Source of the DNA: an uncultured Prevotella sp.
Lineage (GTDB): Bacteria; Bacteroidota; Bacteroidia; Bacteroidales; Bacteroidaceae
DNA length: 64,000 nucleotides
Direction of reading: 5' to 3'
Assembly: GCA_900317405.1 (NCBI GenBank)
Contig: ONGP01000011.1
Span: 33,166-97,165, forward strand
The translations under genes and the position numbers were made by a program. Within the stretch, counting starts at the first letter, position 1. Every line of letters starts with the position of its first letter. Below the pieces are notes generated by a model. The model saw only the letters and a program-made list of their open reading frames with translations. It did no database searches and had not been told where the DNA came from. Positions 3,775 to 56,156 of this stretch are shown piece by piece.

Positions 3775-4248
3775 ATGGGAAAGATTAGAAAGGTCGTCCG
3801 TGAAGACTTAAAACACATGGATTGGTTTCTAACTGCTATCGATGAGGGTAGAGTGCGTATCGAGATAACCGATGATAGCGTTAGTAGACATGCTGTTATT
3901 AATAATGTACGCGCGTACGTGGCGCGTATTGAGGGGATTGTTGCTAAGAAGTATCGGGATAGCATAAAGTGCCTTTGGGACAGGTTGCTGGAAACAGACA
4001 AAGTGGCTGATATGATGATGCCTAGTGCCAGAGCCAGAAAATGCCGAGAGTTTGATAAATACAATGTGGTGCGCGTGATAGGCGTGCTGATGGAGCATGG
4101 ATTCTACGATTATCGCAATCAGCAGGATATAATGGAAATGCTGGAAGGTAATCGCGAAAACAGCTATCGTAGCTATCTGGGCAAAGGTATAGACGACGCT
4201 AAGATACGACGTGATATCAGGGCAATTCTGGAAGAATTTGAGATTTAA
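3775..4248 (+). CDS. DUF6043-like protein
   Basis: A 157-residue basic, helical protein (MGKIRKVVREDLKHMDWFLT...), with no signal or membrane segment. It resembles DUF6043-type proteins that precede VirE-N/DUF3987 genes in Bacteroidales mini-elements. Near the C-terminus, ENSYRSYLGKGIDDAKIRRD could contact nucleic acid. It is the first gene of the rightward cluster ending at 8.3 kb, separated from the next gene by a 211-base leader with its own promoter-like box. Function unknown; the family call is moderate. Confidence 0.5.
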   Translation: MGKIRKVVREDLKHMDWFLTAIDEGRVRIEITDDSVSRHAVINNVRAYVARIEGIVAKKYRDSIKCLWDRLLETDKVADMMMPSARARKCREFDKYNVVRVIGVLMEHGFYDYRNQQDIMEMLEGNRENSYRSYLGKGIDDAKIRRDIRAILEEFEI

Positions 4249-5203: not shown

Positions 5204-5551
5204 ATGAAGAAGAAATTTGTTAACATCTTGAATATTATCGAAGTGATGGACCGACTGATGCGAGGACTGACAGTGGAGGGCTCGCTGTATGTAGACAAAG
5301 ACACACACATGCTGTCGTTCAGACCATACCGCATGGCAAAGTATCAACCTGGTTATTATCGCAAGCGCCCCAAACCTAGATTGATAAAGAAGTTGCCGTG
5401 GGGCTGGCTGAAGAAGTCGGTAAAGAATAATATGCTGTATGTGAGTGTGCCTGAAGAACTTGGTACGACAATGACGATGGGTATCATCGACGAGCACGCG
5501 CGTATGGCTAAAGATGCACTGATAGACGAGGAATTGAAGGAGTTCTGCTAA
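5204..5551 (+). CDS. Hypothetical basic protein of the mini-element
   Basis: A 115-residue protein. The N-terminal half is mixed (IIEVMDRLMRGLTVEGSLYV). The middle is very basic (KRPKPRLIKKLPWGWLKKSV) and the C-terminal helix acidic (DALIDEELKEF). The basic centre could bind nucleic acid. No family is recognised. It is 24 bases upstream of the VirE-N/DUF3987 gene and probably co-transcribed with it. Confidence 0.55.
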   Translation: MKKKFVNILNIIEVMDRLMRGLTVEGSLYVDKDTHMLSFRPYRMAKYQPGYYRKRPKPRLIKKLPWGWLKKSVKNNMLYVSVPEELGTTMTMGIIDEHARMAKDALIDEELKEFC

Positions 5552-5575
5552 TATTGTTAACCTAAGAATATATAT

Positions 5576-7975
5576 ATGTTTTGTTATCAGAGGAATTTTA
5601 GTAATCCCACACAGCCCGTGGACGAAGCGCAATTCTATGCGCTCGTCAGGGCTACGGAGTGGGGCGAGAAGATTGACAAGTATCGTGAAACGGGTGATGC
5701 TGCCATAAAGCGCAAGTTGCCTGCGTTTATATTTCAGGCCACGTTTGATGAAACCACGTCGCCGAAGGGTAAGACTGGCGCTTGGCGCAAACAAGCGGCT
5801 ACGCGACTGACCGGACTGGTGGTGATGGATTTGGACCATCTCGACAATCCGTTGGCTCTGTATCAGGGATGGATAGAGAAGGGGCTTGATCTGAAGGCGC
5901 TCGGTATAGTACTGGTATACGTCAGTCCTAGTGGCAAGGGATTGAAGATAGTGTTCAAGGCCCGTTTGGACTGGGGAAACCTTATCGACAATCAGCACGC
6001 TATGGCTAAGATACTTGGCGACGATGTGGAACCAGATGAGGCTTGCAAGGACGCATCGCGTATGTCGTTTATATGTAAAGAATCTGACATTTTGTATATT
6101 GACAAAGAACTATTTGCGTATGAGAATAAGGAATATGCTGAGAGATATGATGCTCTATATCGAGACGGTCATACACAGGCTACGCGAGAGAATTGTGACA
6201 GGGTACAGGGACCTGTAACAACTACTGCCGGCGATTTGTATTGTGACAGGTACCAGTCCCCAGTCACAAGAGAAAAATCCTTTAAAGGTATCGCATACTC
6301 CGCGATTATCGACGAGTGGTGGCGACAGAATGGCGGAGTGCCGCAGGAGGGCGAGAGAAATGTAAAGCTGTATCAGCTTGCGGTTAGTCTTAGGGCGATT
6401 TGCGATAATAACAAATCACTGATTCTGCAGATTATCCCACGCCTAGGTCTGGGCGAAATAGAGGTGGAACGTATTGTAGACTCAGCCTGCAAAGAAACTC
6501 CTAAAGGTTTGTCGAAGACTATGCAGGAAGTGCTTGGAGCGCTGATGCCCAAGAAGCCTGAGGCGCCTACTGAGCGCGAGATTGACCAATGGCTCTGGGA
6601 TTGGGGTGAGCAGATAGAGGCGCTGATGCCACAATTCCCAATACTTAAGGATGTATGTAAGGGGCTGAAGAAGAATCAATACGTAGCAGCCCTGTTTGTG
6701 GCTGGCGGGTTTATGATGACGCTGATGACACGCTGTACGTATAGCTTCTATCATCGTCCGGAGGATTTGCGAAGACTGAACTGCGCAGTACAGATTATCG
6801 GCGATCCTGCCAGTGGAAAATCGTTCGCCACGCGACTCTACAAACTGCTCATCGCACCAATAATCGAAGCTGACAGGGCGGGTAAGGATGCCATTAACGC
6901 CTATCGCGAACAGATGAAGACGAAGGGTGCCAACAAGGAGAAACCTAAGAAACCGAAAGCGGTGATCCGCGTGCATCCTGCGCGTACGTCGAATGCTCAG
7001 TTTATACAGGACATGGTGAACGCTGTGGAGGAAGTGGATGGTGAGAAGATGCAGTTACACATGCTGACCTTCGACACAGAGCTTGATAATACAATCAGTG
7101 TGCAGCGTGGCGGTTCGTGGATAGACAAACAGTCGCTTGAACTGAAAGCGTTTCACAATGAGGAGGACGGACAGGCGTATAGCAACATGGACTCGGTGAT
7201 AGAGAACTTTGTGGTGACGTGGAACTATGTGTATACGGGTACGCCACTGGCGCTGAGAGCCAAGATTAACGAGGCTAACTTTGGTAGTGGACTTGCCACC
7301 CGACTGACGTGCATACCGCTACCGCCAACCAACTTTGAGATGATGAGCCGTGTGAGTACTAAGGATGAGGCTAGCGACAACCGTCTGAAAGAGTGGGGTG
7401 TGAAACTGGATCGTATGAAGGGTGTGCTTTCGCTGGGCAAGATTGTGGATGAGCTGTATGAGTGGACCGCACGCCGCATGGCTGATGCAAAGGAGGACAA
7501 CTCGAAAGCAGAGGAGATGCTGCTGAAGCGATGCGCCTACCACGGAATTAACTTCGCTGCGCCATTTATAGTGATGCGCCACTGGGACAAGATGCATCAG
7601 GACGGGGCGTACTATTGTGGAGAGTTTGAAACTGACGAAGTGGACTGGAAGTTGGCTGAGTTGATAGTAAACGTGCAGTATGCCTGTCAGCGCCATTACT
7701 TCATGGCTCTTGCCGAGCGGTACTTTGACGACCAGATGCGCGATATATCCATAAATGCACATCGCAACAGCAAGACGATTGAGGCATTCAACCGATTGCC
7801 TGACGAGTTTACCGTAGAAGATGTGATGCAGTGCTTCTCGATAGCGAAGGATAACATCGCCAGAGCGAGAATAAGCAGACTGGTGAAGGATCACTATGTA
7901 GAGAAGGTGGGAGAGTATGTGGAAAATGGCACGACCAAGGCCGCATTTCAGAAAACTGGCAGAGCGATGTGCTAA
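5576..7975 (+). CDS. BT4734/VirE-N + DUF3987 primase/helicase-like protein
   Basis: A 799-residue protein of the type carried by many Bacteroidales genomes. Residues about 1-190 match the BT4734/BF3469 (VirE N-terminal, primase-like) domain, including LTGLVVMDLDHLDN and VYVSPSGKGLKIVFKA. Residues about 230-330 form a helical connector of PriCT-like type. About 340-790 is DUF3987, a superfamily-3-like ATPase with Walker A GDPASGKS (409-416) and the DTELDN segment. It would prime and unwind DNA for replication of a small integrated element. It sits downstream of four small genes and upstream of a broken M15 peptidase, which is the usual order. The frame is intact although the element is not. 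Confidence 0.85.
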   Translation: MFCYQRNFSNPTQPVDEAQFYALVRATEWGEKIDKYRETGDAAIKRKLPAFIFQATFDETTSPKGKTGAWRKQAATRLTGLVVMDLDHLDNPLALYQGWIEKGLDLKALGIVLVYVSPSGKGLKIVFKARLDWGNLIDNQHAMAKILGDDVEPDEACKDASRMSFICKESDILYIDKELFAYENKEYAERYDALYRDGHTQATRENCDRVQGPVTTTAGDLYCDRYQSPVTREKSFKGIAYSAIIDEWWRQNGGVPQEGERNVKLYQLAVSLRAICDNNKSLILQIIPRLGLGEIEVERIVDSACKETPKGLSKTMQEVLGALMPKKPEAPTEREIDQWLWDWGEQIEALMPQFPILKDVCKGLKKNQYVAALFVAGGFMMTLMTRCTYSFYHRPEDLRRLNCAVQIIGDPASGKSFATRLYKLLIAPIIEADRAGKDAINAYREQMKTKGANKEKPKKPKAVIRVHPARTSNAQFIQDMVNAVEEVDGEKMQLHMLTFDTELDNTISVQRGGSWIDKQSLELKAFHNEEDGQAYSNMDSVIENFVVTWNYVYTGTPLALRAKINEANFGSGLATRLTCIPLPPTNFEMMSRVSTKDEASDNRLKEWGVKLDRMKGVLSLGKIVDELYEWTARRMADAKEDNSKAEEMLLKRCAYHGINFAAPFIVMRHWDKMHQDGAYYCGEFETDEVDWKLAELIVNVQYACQRHYFMALAERYFDDQMRDISINAHRNSKTIEAFNRLPDEFTVEDVMQCFSIAKDNIARARISRLVKDHYVEKVGEYVENGTTKAAFQKTGRAMC

Positions 7976-46375: not shown

Positions 46376-47689
46376 ATGGCGAAGACGATAGATATCATAT
46401 CACTGGGATGCTCTAAGAATCTTGTGGACAGCGAGACTCTGATGGGACTGATGGAGGCCAACGGCTATCAGTGCACTCACGATAGCGATGACCCGCAGGG
46501 CGAGATTGTGGTTGTAAATACCTGTGGATTCATCAACGACGCCAAGGAGGAGAGCATCAATACCATACTGGAATTTGCCCAGGCCAAGACCGAGGGACGT
46601 ATCGAGAAGCTATTTGTAATGGGCTGTCTGTCAGAACGTTATCTGGCCGACCTGGAGCGCGAGATACCCGAGGTGGACGGATGGTACGGCAAGTTTAACT
46701 ACAAGAAACTGTTGAAGGACCTGAAGGGTGAGGACTTTGCTGCTTGCGAGGGCAAACGCCATATCACCACTCCGCGTCACTATGCATATATCAAGATAAG
46801 CGAGGGCTGCGATCGCCACTGCGCCTACTGTGCCATCCCGCTGATAACGGGCAAGCATCAGAGCCGCCCCATGCAGGAGATACTGGATGAGGTGCGCTAT
46901 CTGGTAAGTCAGGGCACCAAGGAGTTTAATGTCATCGCACAGGAGCTTACCTACTATGGTGTAGACCTGGACGGCAAGCAGCACATAGCCGAGCTTATCG
47001 AGCAGATGGCCGACATCCCCGGTGTGGAGTGGATCCGCCTGCACTACGCATATCCCACACACTTCCCATGGGACCTGCTGCGAGTGATCCGCGAAAAGCA
47101 GAACGTATGTAAGTATCTCGACATAGCCCTGCAGCATGTATCAGATAATATGCTGAGTCGTATGCGTCGCCATGTCACTAAGGAGGAGACATACGAGCTG
47201 GTTCGCCGCATGCGCCAGGAGGTGCCCGGCATACACATCCGCACCACACTGATGGTGGGATTCCCAGGCGAGACCGATCAGGACTTTGAGGAGTTGAAGG
47301 AGTTTGTAAAGTGGGCCCGCTTTGAGCGTATGGGCGCCTTTGCATATTCTGAGGAAGAAGGCACATATTCGGCCGACAACTTCGAGGACGATGTGCCCGA
47401 GGATGTGAAGCAGGCCCGACTGGACAAGATAATGCGCATACAGCAGAACATCAGTACCGAACTGGAGGCCGAAAAGGTGGGCAAGGTGCTCAAGGTAATC
47501 ATCGACCGACAGGAGGGCGACTACTATATCGGCCGAACAGAATACTGCTCGCCCGAGGTTGATCCAGAGGTGCTTATCCCTGCGGCCGAGGCCAAACTCA
47601 CCGTGGGCAACTTCTACGATGTTAAGATTACAGATTCGGAAGAATTTGATATATACGGAACCACAATCATTAAAACATATGAACAATAA
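46376..47689 (+). CDS. rimO: Ribosomal protein S12 methylthiotransferase
   Basis: 437 residues. UPF0004 domain with the first cluster (SLGCSKNLVDSETL, VVNTCGFINDAKEE, GCLSERY), the radical-SAM motif EGCDRHCAYCAIPLITGKHQ (CxxxCxxC) and a C-terminal TRAM domain. It adds a methylthio group to Asp of S12. It overlaps the HU gene by 11 bases. Confidence 0.95.
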   Translation: MAKTIDIISLGCSKNLVDSETLMGLMEANGYQCTHDSDDPQGEIVVVNTCGFINDAKEESINTILEFAQAKTEGRIEKLFVMGCLSERYLADLEREIPEVDGWYGKFNYKKLLKDLKGEDFAACEGKRHITTPRHYAYIKISEGCDRHCAYCAIPLITGKHQSRPMQEILDEVRYLVSQGTKEFNVIAQELTYYGVDLDGKQHIAELIEQMADIPGVEWIRLHYAYPTHFPWDLLRVIREKQNVCKYLDIALQHVSDNMLSRMRRHVTKEETYELVRRMRQEVPGIHIRTTLMVGFPGETDQDFEELKEFVKWARFERMGAFAYSEEEGTYSADNFEDDVPEDVKQARLDKIMRIQQNISTELEAEKVGKVLKVIIDRQEGDYYIGRTEYCSPEVDPEVLIPAAEAKLTVGNFYDVKITDSEEFDIYGTTIIKTYEQ

Positions 47690-47966
47690 AGACTTTATCA
47701 CAGAATTGGCACAGCGCACGGGTTACTCGACCGACGAGGCCCAGCAGTTTGTGAATTGCGTTGTAGATGCAATGGGTGATCATTTCCAGGATGATGACTC
47801 AGTGCTGATACCTACTTTCGGTACATTCGAGGTGAAAAAGAAGATGGAGCGAATCATGGTCAATCCCTCAACCGGACAGCGTATGCTGGTACCACCAAAA
47901 CTGGTGCTGACATTCAAGCCTAATGTAAGTTGGAAAGAACGCGTAAAGAATGGAGGAGCCGAGTGA
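47679..47966 (+). CDS. HU family DNA-binding protein
   Basis: 95 residues from the ATG at 47679 ([20 protein letters not shown]). It has the classical HU layout: two helices, then [20 protein letters not shown] with the flexible arm and [16 protein letters not shown]. It bends DNA non-specifically. It overlaps rimO by 11 bases, and its stop codon (TGA) shares one base with the ATG of the giant HU-LysM gene. Confidence 0.92.
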
Positions 47967-50362
47967 TGGGAAAGATTTCGATACAAGAGCTGGCCAATGT
48001 GCTGATAGAGAAGAAGCATCTGAACAAGCGCGACGCAAGTCTGTTTGTTAGCGCCATGTTTGATATAGTACAGCAGCGCCTGGAAACCGACAAACTGGTT
48101 AAGGTAAAGGGCCTGGGTACATTTAAAATTATAGATGTAGAAGACCGCGAGAGCGTGAACGTAAATACCGGCGAGCGAGTGCTGATAGAGGGTCACGGCA
48201 AGATAACCTATGTGCCCGATGCACTGCTTAAGGAACTGGTAAACAAGCCATTCTCGCAGTTTGAGACAGTGGTGCTGAATGATGGCGTAGACTTCGAGGA
48301 TGTTCCTACAACATCTACCGACGAGCCTGAGGTTGAGGTAGATACTGAGCCAATAGTAGAGCCAGAACCAGTGGTTGAGCCTGAGCCAATCGCTGAGCCA
48401 GAGATTACCATTCGCCCTGAGGCTGCACCCGAGCCAGAGCCTGTGGCAGAGGATGAGCACTCATCGATGCCGCTGGTAGATTTCGGATTTGTAGAAGAGG
48501 AGCCCGTGGTTGCTCCTGCGCCTGTGGCAGCACCAGTTGCTGACATTGAGGATGAGCCGGAAGACGAACCCGAAGATGAGTTGGAAGACGAATTCGACGA
48601 CGATATAGATGATGAACTCGAGGAGGAGAAGAATCTCGGAATGACAATCCGCCCCGAAGTAACATATCGCCCAGAGCCCATGCCAGAGCCCGAGCCAATG
48701 CCCGAGCCCGAAATCGAACCTGAGATTACTGTTCGTCCTGAGACAACTGTACGTCCTGATGCTATGGTTGAGCCTGAGTTTGAATCAGAACTCGATGAAA
48801 AACTGGAGCCAGAGATGGAGGCAGCAATGGCCAAGCCCGAGCCAAAGGTGATAGAGGAAATCGCAGACGAAGATATTCCAGAATGGGTAATCGAACCATA
48901 TGCAGCTCAGCCTGAGCAGCCAAAGGCAGAAGAGCCAATAGCTGAACCCGAACTGGAGCCCGAGATAACCGTTCGCCCAGAGCCAATGGCAGAAGAGCCA
49001 ATAGCTGAACCCGAGCTGGAGCCCGAGATAACCGTTCGCCCAGAGCCAATGGCCGAGCCTGAGCCAATCGTTGAGCCTGAGCCTATGCCCGAGCCTGAGC
49101 CTGTTCGCGAGACTCCAAAGCCTGTGGCAAACGATCTGCAGTCGATTCTGAGTCAGTTCCAGACGATTAAGAAGCCTGCTCCAGCCCCCGAGCCAGAGCC
49201 CGCTCCAATCGTAGAACCCGAACCCGCTCCAATCGTAGAGCCCGAACCAGTTCAGATTCCTGAACCAGAGCCAGTATACACTCCTGAGTCCGAGCCAATC
49301 GTAGCTCCTGAGCCTGTATACACTCCCGAGCCGGAACCAATTGTAGCTCCTGAGCCTGTATACACTCCTGAGCCCGAGCCTGTTCAGCCAATCATCACTC
49401 AGCTTTCTGACGAAACAAAGATTACTGAGGAGATGCTGATGGATGAGCCAATAGTAGAGCCCGAACCAATCGTAGAGCCCGAACCCGTATATGTGCCTGA
49501 GCCAGAGCCAATTGTGGCCCCTGAGCCAGAACCAATAGTAGAGCCCGAGCCAAGAAAGATGACTGCCGACGAAGAGCTGGCTGCAGCATTCGGCGAGGTG
49601 AAGGAAGAGATTATAGCCCCAGTAGCTGAGGAGCCAATCGCTGAGCCAGAACCAGAATACGAAACAGAGGAAGAAGACGACGAGCCCGAGTTTGATACCA
49701 AGCCAACCCGCGAGAGAAAGTCGGGCAGCAAGTGGCTCCTGGTATTGCTCGCACTGATAGTAGGCGTGGGTGGAGGATACTTCCTGGGTAGCTACTATCC
49801 ATACGAAAAGCTGATGGCACCAGCCGAAGAAGGTACAGTGATAAATGTACAGAAGGCCGATGTGGAGAAAGCCGCAGCCCCAGAGCCAAAGGCCGAAGAG
49901 CCCGTAGCCGAGGAGCCTGCAGCCGAAACCGCTGAGCCAAACGAGGCCGATGCAAAAGCTAAAGCCGAAGCAGAAGCTAAGGCCAAAGCTGCAGCCGAAG
50001 AAAAAGCAAAAGCTGATGCCGCCGCTAAAGCCAAAGCCGAGGCAGATGCCAAAGCAAAGGCAGCCGCTGACGCAAAGGCCAAGGCAGAAGCCGACGCTAA
50101 AGCCGCATCAAACAAGTACGACGCGATGGACGTAAGAGTTAGACTGGGAGCCTATCGTATCGTAGGTACCGACAAGGTGGTTAAGGCAAAGGAAGGCGAT
50201 GATCTTGTAAAGATTTCACGCCGTGTACTTGGTCCTGATATGGAGTGCTATCTCGAGGTTTATAACAACATCAAGGCATCGACTCCACTCAAAGTAGGAC
50301 AAGAAATAAAGATTCCAAAACTGGAGTGGAAGAAGAAAAAGAAGGCCGCAACAGCCAACTAA
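47966..50362 (+). CDS. HU-(PE)n-TM-LysM protein: nucleoid-to-envelope bridge candidate
   Basis: 798 residues. Domain order: HU-like DNA-binding domain (1-95: [20 protein letters not shown] ... [20 protein letters not shown] ... [18 protein letters not shown]); an acidic proline-glutamate region of about 480 residues with repeats such as [20 protein letters not shown]; one transmembrane helix (589-612, [20 protein letters not shown]); an Ala/Lys/Glu-rich helix (650-715); and a C-terminal LysM-like domain (722-790: [20 protein letters not shown] ... [20 protein letters not shown]). The HU part would be cytoplasmic and the LysM part periplasmic. Physical linking of nucleoid and peptidoglycan is inference. 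It is coupled to an ordinary HU gene. Confidence 0.85.
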
Positions 50363-50376
50363 AACTGCAAATAATG

Positions 50377-50415
50377 AAAAAGTTTCTTAAAACTTAGGTT
50401 TTGGGAAACTTTTTT
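50377..50415 (+). terminator. Terminator after the HU-LysM gene
   Basis: AAAAAGTTTC (50377-50386) pairs with GAAACTTTTT (50405-50414), ending in T6. It is U-rich and A-stemmed. Confidence 0.75.
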
Positions 50416-50461
50416 AATATTATTTAGACAGACAAATAGTGGCTAAGTGCTATAAAAAAAG

Positions 50462-50507: not shown

Positions 50508-51503
50508 ATGGCAGAAGCTATTGATATCCGAGAGCTGAATATCCGGATTGAACAACAAAGCGCATTTGTAACAAATCTTGTTAGTGGAATGGACCGCGTG
50601 ATCGTGGGTCAGAAGCATCTGGTAGACTCACTGCTGATAGGTTTGTTGAGTGATGGACATATACTGTTGGAAGGTGTGCCTGGTCTGGCTAAGACATTGG
50701 CCATCAAGACACTTTCGCAGTTGATCGACTCGAAGTACAGTCGTATCCAGTTTACCCCCGACCTTCTACCTGCCGACGTTATCGGTACCATGATCTACTC
50801 GCAGAAGGACGAGAAGTTCCAGGTGAAGATGGGACCAGTGTTTGCTAACTTCGTACTGGCCGATGAAATCAACCGTGCCCCAGCCAAGGTGCAGAGTGCA
50901 CTGCTGGAGGCCATGCAGGAAAAGCAGGTTACTATCGGCAGCAAGACATTTGAATTGCCAAACCCATTCCTGGTGATGGCTACACAGAACCCGATAGAGC
51001 AGGAGGGTACCTATCCACTGCCCGAGGCACAGGTAGACCGATTCATGCTGAAGGTGGTAATCGACTATCCTACACTCGAAGAGGAGAAGAAGATTATCCG
51101 CGAGAACATCGCAGGCGAGATGCCAACCGTTACCCCAGTGACCACAGCCGACGAGATACTGAAGGCTCGCAGTGTGGTTCGCGAGGTTTACATCGACGAG
51201 AAGATCGAGCAGTATATTGCCGACATAGTATTTGCAACCCGCTATCCTGAGCGCTACGGCCTGAAGGATCTTAAGGATATGATTTCGTTTGGTGGTTCGC
51301 CCCGTGCCAGCATCAATCTGGCTAAGGCTGCCCGCGCTTATGCATTCATCAAGCGTCGCGGATACGTGGTGCCTGAGGATGTGCGTGCTGTGGCTCACGA
51401 CGTACTGCGCCATCGTATCGGACTGACCTACGAGGCCGAGGCAAGCAACATCACAAGCGAGGAAATCGTTTCGAAGATTATCAATAAGGTTGAAGTGCCC
51501 TGA
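50508..51503 (+). CDS. MoxR family AAA+ ATPase (Bat operon)
   Basis: 331 residues. Walker A is degenerate in the family manner (LLEGVPGLAKTLAIKTLSQL). FTPDLLPADVIGTMIY, FANFVLADEINRAPAKVQSA (Walker B), KTFELPNPFLVMATQNPIEQ and EAQVDRFMLKV follow. MoxR ATPases act as chaperones that mature complexes with VWA proteins. First gene of MoxR-DUF58-(unknown)-BatA-BatBC-BatDE; the next ATG lies in the stop codon. Confidence 0.92.
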   Translation: MAEAIDIRELNIRIEQQSAFVTNLVSGMDRVIVGQKHLVDSLLIGLLSDGHILLEGVPGLAKTLAIKTLSQLIDSKYSRIQFTPDLLPADVIGTMIYSQKDEKFQVKMGPVFANFVLADEINRAPAKVQSALLEAMQEKQVTIGSKTFELPNPFLVMATQNPIEQEGTYPLPEAQVDRFMLKVVIDYPTLEEEKKIIRENIAGEMPTVTPVTTADEILKARSVVREVYIDEKIEQYIADIVFATRYPERYGLKDLKDMISFGGSPRASINLAKAARAYAFIKRRGYVVPEDVRAVAHDVLRHRIGLTYEAEASNITSEEIVSKIINKVEVP

Positions 51504-52372
51504 TGGAAACCTCTGAGATCATAAAGAAAGTCCGTAAGATCGAGATCAAGACCCGTGGCTTGAGCTCAAACATCTTTGCCGGTCAGTACCACTCTGCCTT
51601 CAAGGGTAGGGGTATGGCCTTCAGCGAGGTGCGCGAGTATCAGTTCGGCGATGATGTTCGTGATATCGACTGGAATGTGACTGCTCGTTTCCATCGTCCT
51701 TATGTAAAGGTGTTCGAAGAGGAGCGCGAGATGACGGTGATGCTGATGATCGACGTCAGTGGATCGCTCGACTTCGGAACCCAGAAGCAGATGAAGCGTG
51801 ACATGGTGACGGAGATTGCCGCCACTCTGGCCTTCAGTGCTATCCAGAACAACGATAAGATAGGTGTAATCTTCTTCTCCGACAAGATCGAGAAGTACAT
51901 TCCGCCAAAGAAGGGCCGCAAGCACATACTGTACATCATCCGCGAGATGCTGGACTTTGAGCCGGAGTCGAAGCGTACTGATGTTAAGCAGGCCATCGAG
52001 TTTCTGTCGAGTGTTCAGAAGCGCCGCACCACGACCTTTATCCTGAGCGACTTCTATGTGCGAGGCGATTTTCTGCAGTCGCTGCAGATAGCCAATCGCA
52101 AGCACGATGTGGTGGCTATCCAGGTGTACGACCAGCGCGCCCGCGAGTTGCCCGATGTGGGACTGATGAAGGTGGTAGACGCCGAGACGGGCTACGAGCA
52201 ATATGTAGACACAAGTTCCAAGAAACTGCGCCAGGCATACAATAAATATTGGATGACCCGCCAGGCACAGTTGCAGGATACTTTTAATAAGAGCAATGTA
52301 GACAGCGTGAGCATAGCCACCAACGAGGACTTTGTAAAATCGCTACTGCTGCTATTTAAAAAGCGTAATTAA
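51503..52372 (+). CDS. DUF58 domain protein (Bat operon)
   Basis: 289 residues. GQYHSAFKGRGMAFSEVREY and QFGDDVRDIDWNVTARFHRP form the DUF58 signature; VMLMIDVSGSLDFGTQKQMK resembles a VWA metal site (DxSxS). It is thought to work with the MoxR ATPase. It overlaps both neighbours by single bases. Confidence 0.92.
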   Translation: METSEIIKKVRKIEIKTRGLSSNIFAGQYHSAFKGRGMAFSEVREYQFGDDVRDIDWNVTARFHRPYVKVFEEEREMTVMLMIDVSGSLDFGTQKQMKRDMVTEIAATLAFSAIQNNDKIGVIFFSDKIEKYIPPKKGRKHILYIIREMLDFEPESKRTDVKQAIEFLSSVQKRRTTTFILSDFYVRGDFLQSLQIANRKHDVVAIQVYDQRARELPDVGLMKVVDAETGYEQYVDTSSKKLRQAYNKYWMTRQAQLQDTFNKSNVDSVSIATNEDFVKSLLLLFKKRN

Positions 52373-53439
52373 TGAAAAGAATATTTCTGCTTATATCACT
52401 GATTGCTAACACTTTGCTGATGACGGCGCAAGTGTCGGTCGAGACTGAGATAGACTCGATACAGATCTTCGTTGGTCAGCAGACTCACCTCAAGTTGACT
52501 ACCAATGTGCAGCCAAATCAGAAGGTGGAGTTCCCCCAGTTTCAGCCCACACAGATGATTACTCCCGGAGTAGAGGTGCTGAAGTGCGAGGAGCAGAAAC
52601 AGGATATCGGCGACGGATTCGAGGCCCGTTCGATGGTTTACACACTGACATCGTTCGACGACACTCTGTACTATCTGCCGCCAATGACCGTAAAGGTAGA
52701 CGGCAAGCAGTATAAGAGCAAGAGTCTGGCACTCAAGGTGCTTACCATCGATGTAGATACTACCAAGGTCGACCAGTTCTTTGGTCCTAAGGATGTGCAG
52801 GACAATCCGTTCCTCTGGAGCGAGTGGAGCCTGCCGTTCTGGCTCAGTGTGCTGATGCTGGTGCTGCTGGCCGTATGCTATTACCTGTACCTGCGCCTGC
52901 GCGACAACAAGCCTATCATCACACATATCCGTATTGTTAAGCGCCTGTTGCCACACCAGAAGGCTATGCAGGAAATCGAGCAGATTAAGGCCGACAAGAT
53001 GGTGTCATCGGAGAACTCGAAGGAGTACTACACCAAGCTTACCGACACTCTGCGTAAGTATATCGAGGAGCGCTACGGATTCAGTGCTATGGAGATGACC
53101 AGTAGCGAGATAATCGAGCGACTCACCGCATCGCAGGATCAGAAGGCACTCGACGAACTGCGTGAACTGTTCACCACAGCCGATCTGGTTAAGTTTGCAA
53201 AGTATTCTACGCTTATCAACGAGAACGATAAGAACCTGGTTAGCGCCATCGACTTTATCAATCAGACCAAGCTCGAGGCACAGCCTGTAGAGGAAACCGT
53301 TAAGCCGCAGCTTTCGGCCGAAGACCAGCGCACACAGAAGTCGCGCCGAGTACTCAAGACTGTCATCACCATTATCTCGGTGGTTTGTGCAGTACTGTTC
53401 GGCTATGTGGCCTATACGCTTTATCAGTTATTGAATTAA
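52372..53439 (+). CDS. Membrane protein of the Bat operon
   Basis: 355 residues. Signal segment (MKRIFLLISLIANTLLMTAQ), a beta-rich periplasmic domain of about 130 residues (VSVETEIDSIQIFVGQQTHL, which starts like BatD), a transmembrane helix at about 157-177 (LPFWLSVLMLVLLAVCYYLY), a cytoplasmic helical region, and a second helix at the end (TVITIISVVCAVLFGYVAYT). Its place between DUF58 and BatA is conserved in Bacteroidota. It looks like a short BatD relative; no activity is known. Confidence 0.75.
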   Translation: MKRIFLLISLIANTLLMTAQVSVETEIDSIQIFVGQQTHLKLTTNVQPNQKVEFPQFQPTQMITPGVEVLKCEEQKQDIGDGFEARSMVYTLTSFDDTLYYLPPMTVKVDGKQYKSKSLALKVLTIDVDTTKVDQFFGPKDVQDNPFLWSEWSLPFWLSVLMLVLLAVCYYLYLRLRDNKPIITHIRIVKRLLPHQKAMQEIEQIKADKMVSSENSKEYYTKLTDTLRKYIEERYGFSAMEMTSSEIIERLTASQDQKALDELRELFTTADLVKFAKYSTLINENDKNLVSAIDFINQTKLEAQPVEETVKPQLSAEDQRTQKSRRVLKTVITIISVVCAVLFGYVAYTLYQLLN

Positions 53440-53449
53440 AAACGAAGAA

Positions 53450-54448
53450 ATGGAATTTGCCAATAAAGAATATCTGCTGTTGCTTCTGCTCATCATACCT
53501 TATATAATATGGTATGTGATGTACAGAAAGAAAACCGAGCCCACGCTGCGGATGAGCGACACTTTCGCATTCCGCTATGCGCCCAAGAGCTGGAAGGTTA
53601 CGCTGATGCCTCTCAGCATGTTGCTCCGACTGCTGGTATTTGTTATGATAGTATTGGTTCTGGCTCGCCCACAGACACAGAACTCGTGGGACAGCAAGAC
53701 CGTTGAGGGTATCGACATAATGCTGGCGATGGACGTATCGACCAGTATGCTGGCCGAAGACCTTCGCCCTAACCGTATCGAGGCTGCCAAGCAGGTGGCC
53801 AGCGAGTTTGTCATCGGCCGACCAAATGATAACATCGGACTGGTGATCTTTGCCGGCGAATCGTTCACTCAGTGCCCAATGACCACCGACCATGCCTCGC
53901 TGCTGAATCTGCTACAGAATGTGCGTACAGACATTGCCGCCCGTGGACTTATCGAAGACGGTACCGCCATCGGTATGGGACTGGCCAATGCCGTGAGCCG
54001 ACTGAAGGATTCGAAGGCCAAGAGCAAGGTGGTGATACTGCTTACCGACGGTAGTAACAACCGTGGCGACATCTCGCCATCGACCGCTGCCGAGATAGCC
54101 AAGAGCCTGGGCATCCGCGTGTATACCATCGGCGTGGGAACAAACAAGATTGCACCTTACCCGATGCCTGTGGCCGGAGGAGTGCAATACGTAAATATCC
54201 CTGTGGAGATAGACACCAAGACACTCAGCGAGATAGCTGCTGCTACCGAGGGCGACTTCTATCGCGCCACTAACACCAAGGAACTTCGTAATATCTATAA
54301 GGAAATTGACCAGTTGGAGAAGAGCAAACTCAACGTCAAGACATTCTCAAAGCGCTACGAGGCCTATCAGCCGTTTGCGCTTGTAGCCGTGCTGGCGCTA
54401 CTGCTCGAAATCCTGCTGCGTGTAACTATATTTAGGAGGATACCATAA
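53450..54448 (+). CDS. batA: BatA: membrane VWA protein
   Basis: 332 residues. Two N-terminal membrane helices (about 8-25, 50-70), a von Willebrand A domain (IDIMLAMDVSTSMLAEDLRP with the MIDAS DxSxS, TDGSNNRGDISP) and a C-terminal helix (FALVAVLALLLEILLRVTI). In Bacteroides fragilis BatA-E are needed for oxygen tolerance. It is followed by a second VWA gene one base later. Confidence 0.9.
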   Translation: MEFANKEYLLLLLLIIPYIIWYVMYRKKTEPTLRMSDTFAFRYAPKSWKVTLMPLSMLLRLLVFVMIVLVLARPQTQNSWDSKTVEGIDIMLAMDVSTSMLAEDLRPNRIEAAKQVASEFVIGRPNDNIGLVIFAGESFTQCPMTTDHASLLNLLQNVRTDIAARGLIEDGTAIGMGLANAVSRLKDSKAKSKVVILLTDGSNNRGDISPSTAAEIAKSLGIRVYTIGVGTNKIAPYPMPVAGGVQYVNIPVEIDTKTLSEIAAATEGDFYRATNTKELRNIYKEIDQLEKSKLNVKTFSKRYEAYQPFALVAVLALLLEILLRVTIFRRIP

Positions 54449-54449
54449 T

Positions 54450-56156
54450 ATGTTTAGATTTGCAGACCCTATATATCTCTATCTTTTAGCGGTGATACCA
54501 GTGCTGGCCATCATCCGCTTCCTTACGTATCGCAATCAGAAGAAACGCCTGCGTAAGTTTGGCGATCCCAAATTGCTGCGCGAACTGATGCCCGATGTGT
54601 CGCGATTCCGTCCGGCTGTGAAATTCTGGATTCTGCAGGGCGCTTTGGCATTGCTCATCGTGATGCTGGCCCGTCCGCAGTTTGGCACCAAGATCAACAA
54701 TGAGCAGCGTGTGGGCATAGAGACCATCATTGCGATGGATATCAGTAACTCGATGATGGCCGAGGATATCACGCCTAGCCGACTGGATCGCAGTAAGATG
54801 ATGGTAGAGAATCTGGTTGACCACTTTACTAATGATAAGATTGGTCTCATCGTGTTTGCAGGCGATGCATTCGTGCAGTTGCCTATCACCAGCGACTATG
54901 TTTCGGCCAAGATGTTCCTGTCGAGCATCGACCCATCGATGATGGCTACTCAGGGCACTGATATCGCCCGTGCCATCGATATGGCTACACATAGCTTTAC
55001 CCAGGAGGAAGGTATCGGCAAGGCTATCATCGTGATTACCGATGGTGAGGACCACGAGGGTGGGGCGCTCGAAGCTGCCAAAGCCGCCAAGGATGCCGGA
55101 ATGAGAGTATACGTACTAGGTGTGGGCTCTACCAAGGGCTCGCCAATACCCATCCCAGGCACCGGCGACTATATGAAGGATAATACCGGAAATACCGTTA
55201 TGTCGGCCCTCAACGAGGATATGTGTCGCCAGGTGGCTCAGGCCGGTGGTGGAGCATACATCCACGTTGAGAATAATAGCGCCGCACAAGACCAGCTGGA
55301 CAAGGAACTGGATAAGTTGGCCAAGAAGGAGACCACAAGCACAGTATACAGCGAGTTCGACGAGCAGTTCCAGGCAGTAGCCATCCTGGCATTGCTGCTA
55401 CTGATACTCGAGATTTGCATCTTCGACCGTCGCAATCCTCTGATTAAGCGTCTGTCGCTGTTTGGCTCGAAGAAGAAGGCCGCTGCTACAATGTTGCTAC
55501 TGATGGTTGCTGCCACAGCCAGCGCTCAGCAGGCCGATCGCCAGTATATCCGCGAGGGTAACAAGCAGTTCCGACTGGGCCAGTACGACAAGGCTGAGGT
55601 ATCGTATCGCAAGGCTGTAGAGAAGAATCCCAAGAATCCGCAAGCCGCATATAATCTGGGCAATGCGCTGATGGCCCAGAAGAAGGATTCGGCTGCTGTA
55701 CAGCAGTTTGAGCAGTCAACCCGCATAGAGACAAACCCAATGCGCAAGGCTGCTGCCTATCACAACATGGGTGTAATCTGTCAGACACACAAGATGTATG
55801 ACGAGGCTATCGAGGCCTACAAGAATGCCCTGCGCAATAATCCTAATGATGACGAAACTCGTTATAACCTGGTGCTCTGCAAGCATCTGAAGAAGAAGCA
55901 GGATGAAAAGCAGAAGCAGAACCAGCAGAACAAGGACGACCAGAACAAGAAGGACGATCAGAAGAAGGACGACAAGAAAGACCAGAAACAAGATAAGAAG
56001 GACGACAAACAGCAGGAGCAGCAGAAGCCCCAGATGAGTAAGGACAATGCCGAGCAATTGCTGAATGCCGCCATCCAGAACGAAAAGATGACACAGGACA
56101 AGATGAAGAAGGCTCAACAGCAGCCACAGCGCCGTGCCGTACAGAAAAACTGGTAA
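54450..56156 (+). CDS. BatB-BatC fusion: VWA plus TPR protein
   Basis: 568 residues. Residues about 1-335 are BatB: two membrane helices, a VWA domain (IAMDISNSMMAEDITPSRLD, ITDGEDHEGGALEAAKAAKD) and a third helix (AVAILALLLLILEICIF). Residues 345-500 are BatC: TPRs (YDKAEVSYRKAVEKNPKNPQ, YDEAIEAYKNALRNNPNDDE), and the tail is very rich in Lys/Asp/Gln. At about 343-357 a hydrophobic MLLLMVAATASAQ, like a signal peptide, marks the old BatC start. In B. fragilis these are separate genes. Confidence 0.88.
   Translation: MFRFADPIYLYLLAVIPVLAIIRFLTYRNQKKRLRKFGDPKLLRELMPDVSRFRPAVKFWILQGALALLIVMLARPQFGTKINNEQRVGIETIIAMDISNSMMAEDITPSRLDRSKMMVENLVDHFTNDKIGLIVFAGDAFVQLPITSDYVSAKMFLSSIDPSMMATQGTDIARAIDMATHSFTQEEGIGKAIIVITDGEDHEGGALEAAKAAKDAGMRVYVLGVGSTKGSPIPIPGTGDYMKDNTGNTVMSALNEDMCRQVAQAGGGAYIHVENNSAAQDQLDKELDKLAKKETTSTVYSEFDEQFQAVAILALLLLILEICIFDRRNPLIKRLSLFGSKKKAAATMLLLMVAATASAQQADRQYIREGNKQFRLGQYDKAEVSYRKAVEKNPKNPQAAYNLGNALMAQKKDSAAVQQFEQSTRIETNPMRKAAAYHNMGVICQTHKMYDEAIEAYKNALRNNPNDDETRYNLVLCKHLKKKQDEKQKQNQQNKDDQNKKDDQKKDDKKDQKQDKKDDKQQEQQKPQMSKDNAEQLLNAAIQNEKMTQDKMKKAQQQPQRRAVQKNW

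Follow-up and report, generated by a model that had tools for sequence, protein, structure and literature searches.

The closest described systems to the gene pair considered here are the HU-CCDC81/SPOR proteins of Bacteroidota (PF18174, PF18175, PF05036), in which a single chain carries a pair of HU domains, a membrane helix and, at the C-terminus, a domain of peptidoglycan-binding type. The name HU-CCDC81 reportedly goes back to Burroughs, Kaur, Zhang and Aravind (Cell Cycle, 2017), whose paper is said to predict a role in chromosome partitioning for the SPOR type; its title, as given in reference lists, names novel HU clades and chromosome partitioning. The window of the present study, meaning the whole 64,000-nucleotide stretch that was analysed, comes from an uncultured Prevotella sp. 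(contig ONGP01000011.1) and shows the same plan. Here the two HU domains, the single helix and the wall-binding-type domain are spread across two adjacent genes of the + strand, HU1 (nt 47679–47966) and HU2-LysM (nt 47966–50362). These form a real and conserved two-gene unit that is probably functional, and its best reading, which we hold with moderate confidence, is that of a predicted tether between the nucleoid and the cell wall. This reading draws on the domains, the gene overlap, the conservation of the pair, the natural fusions and the loss of a proline from HU2, all of which were computed, and on LysM and HU folds obtained as models.

Although similar in plan, the two systems differ in that HU-CCDC81/SPOR proteins have HU domains of another type, a single chain and a SPOR domain, whereas the window has two genes and a LysM domain, so that the wall sites involved are possibly different. 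The profile PF18175 gave only 15.4 bits for HU1 and 15.2 bits for HU2 (cut-off 35), PF18174 went unreported, and no SPOR match was found in the window protein at an expectation value (E) of 0.05 or below. Three natural fusions of the pair (described below) score 18.0–21.7 bits with PF18175, also under the cut-off. Because of these low scores, and because LysM replaces SPOR, the pair is not a member of HU-CCDC81 but, by analogy, is a system predicted to work in the same way. The preliminary description of the locus knew of no described function for such a layout. This has to be qualified, since HU-CCDC81/SPOR proteins of the same plan in Bacteroidales leave it less of an orphan; no paper on HU-LysM or on a dedicated HU partner was found in a search confined to open-licence papers. 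The novelty would be lower if the LysM type, too, were covered in the 2017 paper.

Two further groups of proteins are related to the separate ends of the pair. IHF alpha/beta and HU (PF00216) share with it the fold and the dimer-type domain, and with HU1 the arm motif; they are soluble, whereas the HU2 domain continues into a membrane anchor and LysM and, in Bacteroidales, has lost its arm proline. LysM wall-binding proteins, such as an NlpC/P60 endopeptidase (4uz2), MltD (8rhf) and AtlA (2mkx), have the same strand-helix-helix-strand domain as the window protein, superposing at 1.7–2.1 Å over 47–51 residues. Unlike these, the latter is without an enzyme domain and has a DNA-binding-type domain at its other end. 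The tables of PMC10434189 list an HU gene and, separately, a LysM gene.

Domains of HU1 and HU2-LysM

HU1 is a 95-residue HU-fold protein that matches PF00216 at 86.1 bits (E = 2e-24) and has a proline in its arm motif, VNPSTGQ. The ATG of the following gene overlaps its stop codon by one base. HU2-LysM (798 residues) begins with a second HU domain (residues 7–93, nt 47984–48244; 60.9 bits, E = 1.4e-16), in which V replaces the intercalating proline; both HU scores are above the Pfam cut-off of 22.4. A 13-residue tail at the end of and just past the HU2 domain (nt 48242–48280) is conserved in the alignments and marks the clade. It is followed by an acidic Pro-Glu region of 479 residues (nt 48281–49717), predicted to be cytoplasmic, and by a single membrane helix (about residues 590–611, nt 49733–49798) with the basic stretch RERKSGSK just before it. 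Beyond the membrane helix are an Ala/Lys/Glu helix (about residues 660–714, nt 49943–50107), a predicted periplasmic spacer whose TolA-like match is under the cut-off and is probably explained by composition, and the LysM domain (residues 742–784, nt 50189–50317), which models as LysM and is followed by a Lys-rich tail. The domain order of the preliminary description (HU, Pro-Glu, helix, Ala/Lys/Glu, LysM) is supported, and the one-base overlap with an upstream HU gene is likewise as reported there.

Structure prediction, which had been proposed for the HU end, gave an HU/IHF fold for the HU2 domain (mean predicted local distance difference test score 83), the nearest solved folds being IHF alpha and HU. 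The 44 PDB matches at E ≤ 0.001 are nearly all HU, IHF, their complexes or histone-like proteins. The best solved match to the HU2 profile is 2iie, a single-chain IHF, and the best NCBIfam matches are to IHF alpha, under the cut-off. At the opposite end, Pfam LysM (PF01476, cut-off 20.9) scores 18.4 bits with the full-length protein, and 22.8 and 24.1 bits with C-terminal pieces. It was matched at E ≤ 1 by 19 of 30 C-terminal pieces in the genus set A2. The preliminary description had staked its reading on the C-terminus modelling as LysM, and the structure model does so: its top matches are mostly LysM, the closest with root-mean-square deviations of 1.6–2.0 Å over 47–53 residues, at Z below 6 and a best Foldseek E of 0.02 for what is a very small domain.

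Conservation and partnership of the two genes

The named set comprised the 80 best named relatives, mostly titled Prevotella or Prevotellaceae and with Xylanibacter ruminicola among the closest; 78 of their loci contain a complete long gene. HU1 lies directly upstream in 79 of the 80, with the same one-base overlap in 44. All 78 complete long proteins match the LysM-region profile, and one helix exceeds the threshold in 74, the remaining four peaking at 1.15–1.38 on the same scale. Within the genus, a long open reading frame (ORF) match was present in 21/21 genomes that are at least 90% complete, the weakest being 31.6 bits (G009) and 54.4 bits (G019, a fusion). The match was missing in 5 of 35 genus genomes, all of them 50–86% complete. 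In one locus (L177, about 3800–4000), from a metagenome-assembled genome, HU1 is shortened by an in-frame internal gap that is either real or an assembly error.

A strong HU2 match (>80 bits) was found in 26 of 198 genomes of the order, besides the window's own. Forty regions were read, of which 27 came from other families or genera through the order search (L066–L092), and every one of these 27 has HU1 beside a helix-bearing long gene. The other 13 include three fusions (L093, L095 and L104) and one tandem HU frame lacking a helix (L096), and the rest show the pair. In a draw of 148 genomes across the phylum, one family of another class (f134) gave matches of at least 85 bits, with long frames, in 16 of 18 genomes among the matches listed, and in each of the 14 loci read the long gene encodes a helix and is immediately preceded by a small HU frame. 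A survey of Bacteroidota for the domain order and the coupled HU gene, as suggested at the outset, recovers the pair both in the order and in another class; elsewhere in the phylum short HU genes were seen, and at the sensitivity of this search the pair is thus not universal. Relative to eleven relatives, the ratio of nonsynonymous to synonymous substitution rates (dN/dS) was 0.01–0.15 where dS was finite, for HU1, for HU2 and for the last 75 residues of the long protein, several synonymous distances being saturated, and by this measure all three segments are under purifying selection.

The upstream gene was taken in the preliminary description to be an ordinary HU, but it belongs to a separate clade, and its strong matches adjoin the long gene. 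In a tree of 144 HU domains, which has few columns and often open inner forks, every HU2 falls on one side of a branch with support 97/98, and all HU1 sequences group together (support 100/97), apart from five other Bacteroidales HU. As the HU1 rows had been picked beside the long gene, the HU1 profile was also searched in the 198 order genomes. It gave 25 matches of at least 79 bits outside the window's genome, and 25/25 lie beside a long gene. One pair member (in G080) reached no more than 56 bits, and further short HU genes appear from 71 bits down. There is no wide score gap below the HU1 matches, and the border of HU1 is a score and no proof. From the tree and the profile search, HU1 is identified as a dedicated partner, with a clade of its own distinct from ordinary HU. 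Such a small gene would easily be mistaken for a housekeeping HU.

HU1 and HU2 are fused in one chain that includes a membrane helix and terminates in a LysM-like region, directly 3' of rimO, in two loci of one family (L093:5563–7824, + strand; L095:4139–6109, − strand) and in one of the window's genus (L104:5281–6510, + strand), so that what the window encodes in two genes is there a single protein. That genes which are elsewhere neighbours have been joined in two separate parts of the group is good, if indirect, evidence for a single unit, and suggests that HU1 and the HU2 domain form a heterodimer. That the two proteins could pair had been proposed before, and the fusions strengthen the proposal. 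The fused form is not the usual one, as full-length tandem matches were found in just 2 of the 198 order genomes, plus L104. Locus L096 (nt 5237–5818, + strand) has a 194-residue tandem HU frame without a membrane helix, which resembles a soluble pair.

The C-terminal domain can be followed across the same range. With the genus profile A2, just 14 of the 27 order-level proteins gave a score; a profile built from those 14 matched all 13 of the others (at least 49 bits), the three fusions (at least 16.6 bits) and 14/14 proteins of the other class (at least 28.6 bits). In all, 46 of 47 tested proteins were matched, and the exception, L105, is recognised by A2. Pfam LysM went unreported at E ≤ 1 in the three fusions; of five proteins scanned from the other class, a single one gave a match, under the cut-off. 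The C-terminal profile of the other class aligns with that of the window group at an hhalign probability of 94.9, and matches solved LysM proteins, Kbp first.

Predicted tether and alternative explanations

More K/R residues precede than follow the helix in 51 of the 78 complete named proteins, the numbers being equal in 18 and the balance reversed in 9, and the same excess is seen in 22 of 30 further proteins (equal in 3, reversed in 5). The window protein starts with a folded HU domain and has no early hydrophobic stretch, as judged without a signal-peptide program. For these reasons an orientation with the N-terminus inside and the C-terminus outside is predicted as the likelier one, in agreement with the preliminary description. 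The Pro-Glu linker varies from 70 to 505 residues among named relatives and is much less conserved than the domains, which suits a flexible spacer. Its length in the window is not an assembly artefact, given that near relatives (L106–L111) have linkers of 390–455 residues. Fully extended, the window linker would measure well over 100 nm, an upper bound at an assumed 0.31 nm per residue.

In the favoured reading of a nucleoid-to-wall tether, HU1 would pair with the HU2 domain in the cytoplasm, giving a heterodimer like that of IHF. Of the two, HU1 would contribute the DNA-bending arm and would bind DNA in the cell, while HU2 would contribute the leash, made up of the flexible acidic Pro-Glu spacer, the membrane helix, the helical periplasmic spacer and LysM, which would hold peptidoglycan. 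The complex would then tie nucleoid DNA to the wall at many points, and this tie may help chromosome placement or segregation to keep step with the growing envelope. Bacteroidota are not known to have Min- or Noc-type systems. The pair is conserved and genetically simple, could bind DNA on one face of the membrane and peptidoglycan on the other, and bears on how Bacteroidota place and separate their chromosomes; it opens direct anchoring of the nucleoid to the wall to experiment in common bacteria of the gut and rumen.

The chief alternative concerns the HU end. The HU domains of eukaryotic CCDC81 are thought to serve as scaffolds, and the HU pair could likewise be a protein-protein docking module that no longer needs DNA and recruits a cytoplasmic partner to LysM-marked wall sites; we regard this as unlikely, though the least unlikely of the rivals. 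By alignment, the intercalating, DNA-bending arm proline of HU1 is present in 68/68 pairs, including that of the window, while that of HU2 is lost in 52 of 54 Bacteroidales pairs and retained in 14/14 pairs of the other class, as well as in two pairs from the order. (Loci L012, L015 and L018 were left out of this count, having no paired HU1 row in A3, and one gene enters twice, as L037 and L069.) HU2 domains have a low net charge; HU1 is basic in Bacteroidales, whereas its mean charge in the other class is -0.6. An alternative explanation of this arm pattern is a module that has moved toward protein docking, and the low net charge of HU2, which in the other class extends to HU1 as well, together with a weak similarity to HU-CCDC81 profiles, under the cut-off, fits that view. 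Against it stand the invariant proline of HU1 with its HU/IHF arm motif, and the proline kept by HU2 in the other class and the two order-level pairs, from which DNA binding is probably ancestral. The arm and charge patterns rather indicate that in Bacteroidales the main DNA contact is probably made by HU1, with HU2 mainly supplying the leash. A reciprocal arrangement, with proline in one subunit per pair (HU1 in Bacteroidales, HU2 in the other class), was a regular-expression artefact and was overturned by alignment.

With a DNA-binding-type domain inside, one helix and a ligand-binding-type domain outside, the protein could also be a membrane-bound one-component regulator with a logic like that of ToxR or CadC, LysM sensing the wall and the HU pair reshaping promoter DNA. 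IHF is sequence-specific, and the sub-threshold NCBIfam matches to IHF alpha would agree with such a role, but HU/IHF proteins are architectural and not activators, and a linker that ranges so widely in length is ill-suited to signal transmission along a rigid path; we consider a regulator improbable. Least credible of all is an envelope protein whose working part is the Pro-Glu/LysM spacer, acting between wall and membrane or as a cell-shape factor, with the HU pair doing no more than fix its copy number or oligomeric state. The long low-complexity spacers and the TolA-like helix are what such a protein might have, yet the spacer varies freely, and the HU2 domain is better conserved than the C-terminal region (mean column identity 73% in 49 sequences vs 55% in 50).

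Returning to the tether, the LysM pair would be a variant of an already predicted kind, since HU-CCDC81/SPOR has the same plan and often coexists with it. In the eight HU-CCDC81/SPOR proteins scanned, both HU profiles were found in 8/8 and SPOR exceeded the cut-off in 7/8. PF18175 exceeds its cut-off in 157 of the 198 order genomes and in 58 of 60 genus genomes. Both systems occur in 21/21 genus genomes at least 90% complete, and, among the 26 genomes of the order that match HU2 strongly, in at least 17; G119 has no PF18175 match. In the window's own genome no HU-CCDC81 match was above the cut-off (0/1), a result from which no conclusion is drawn, as the assembly is 86% complete and nearly all genus genomes (58 of 60) have such a match. 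Tentatively, then, Prevotella-type and other Bacteroidales having both systems might operate two parallel chromosome-to-wall tethers of one plan, SPOR attaching to septal glycans and LysM to the wall at large, with placement coupled to wall growth and the Pro-Glu spacer tuning length. If so, a continuous DNA-protein-peptidoglycan link would couple chromosome placement to growth of the wall. As a feature of most Bacteroidales, a double tether was rejected, the strong HU2 match being confined to so small a part of the order. Loci L186, L200 and L216, among others, hold HU-CCDC81/SPOR membrane proteins of the kind present in most order genomes searched.

Gene neighbourhood

The upstream neighbour is rimO (nt 46376–47689, + strand; TIGR01125 match), the 3' end of which shares 11 bases with the start of HU1. 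It lies upstream of the pair in every named locus whose upstream sequence runs to 900 bases or more (79/79), and moxR is found downstream in 58 of 77 testable named loci. Dependence on a rimO–moxR context was rejected as a general feature, as neither gene was matched in 10/10 regions (5.6–14 kb) of the other class. A terminator-like hairpin and T run lie 3' of the long gene (nt 50375–50416, + strand); this is a pattern match only, four such patterns being observed in the region vs 5.8 in shuffles. Further 3' of the pair in the window (nt 50508–56156) are moxR, DUF58, batD, batA and batB/C genes.
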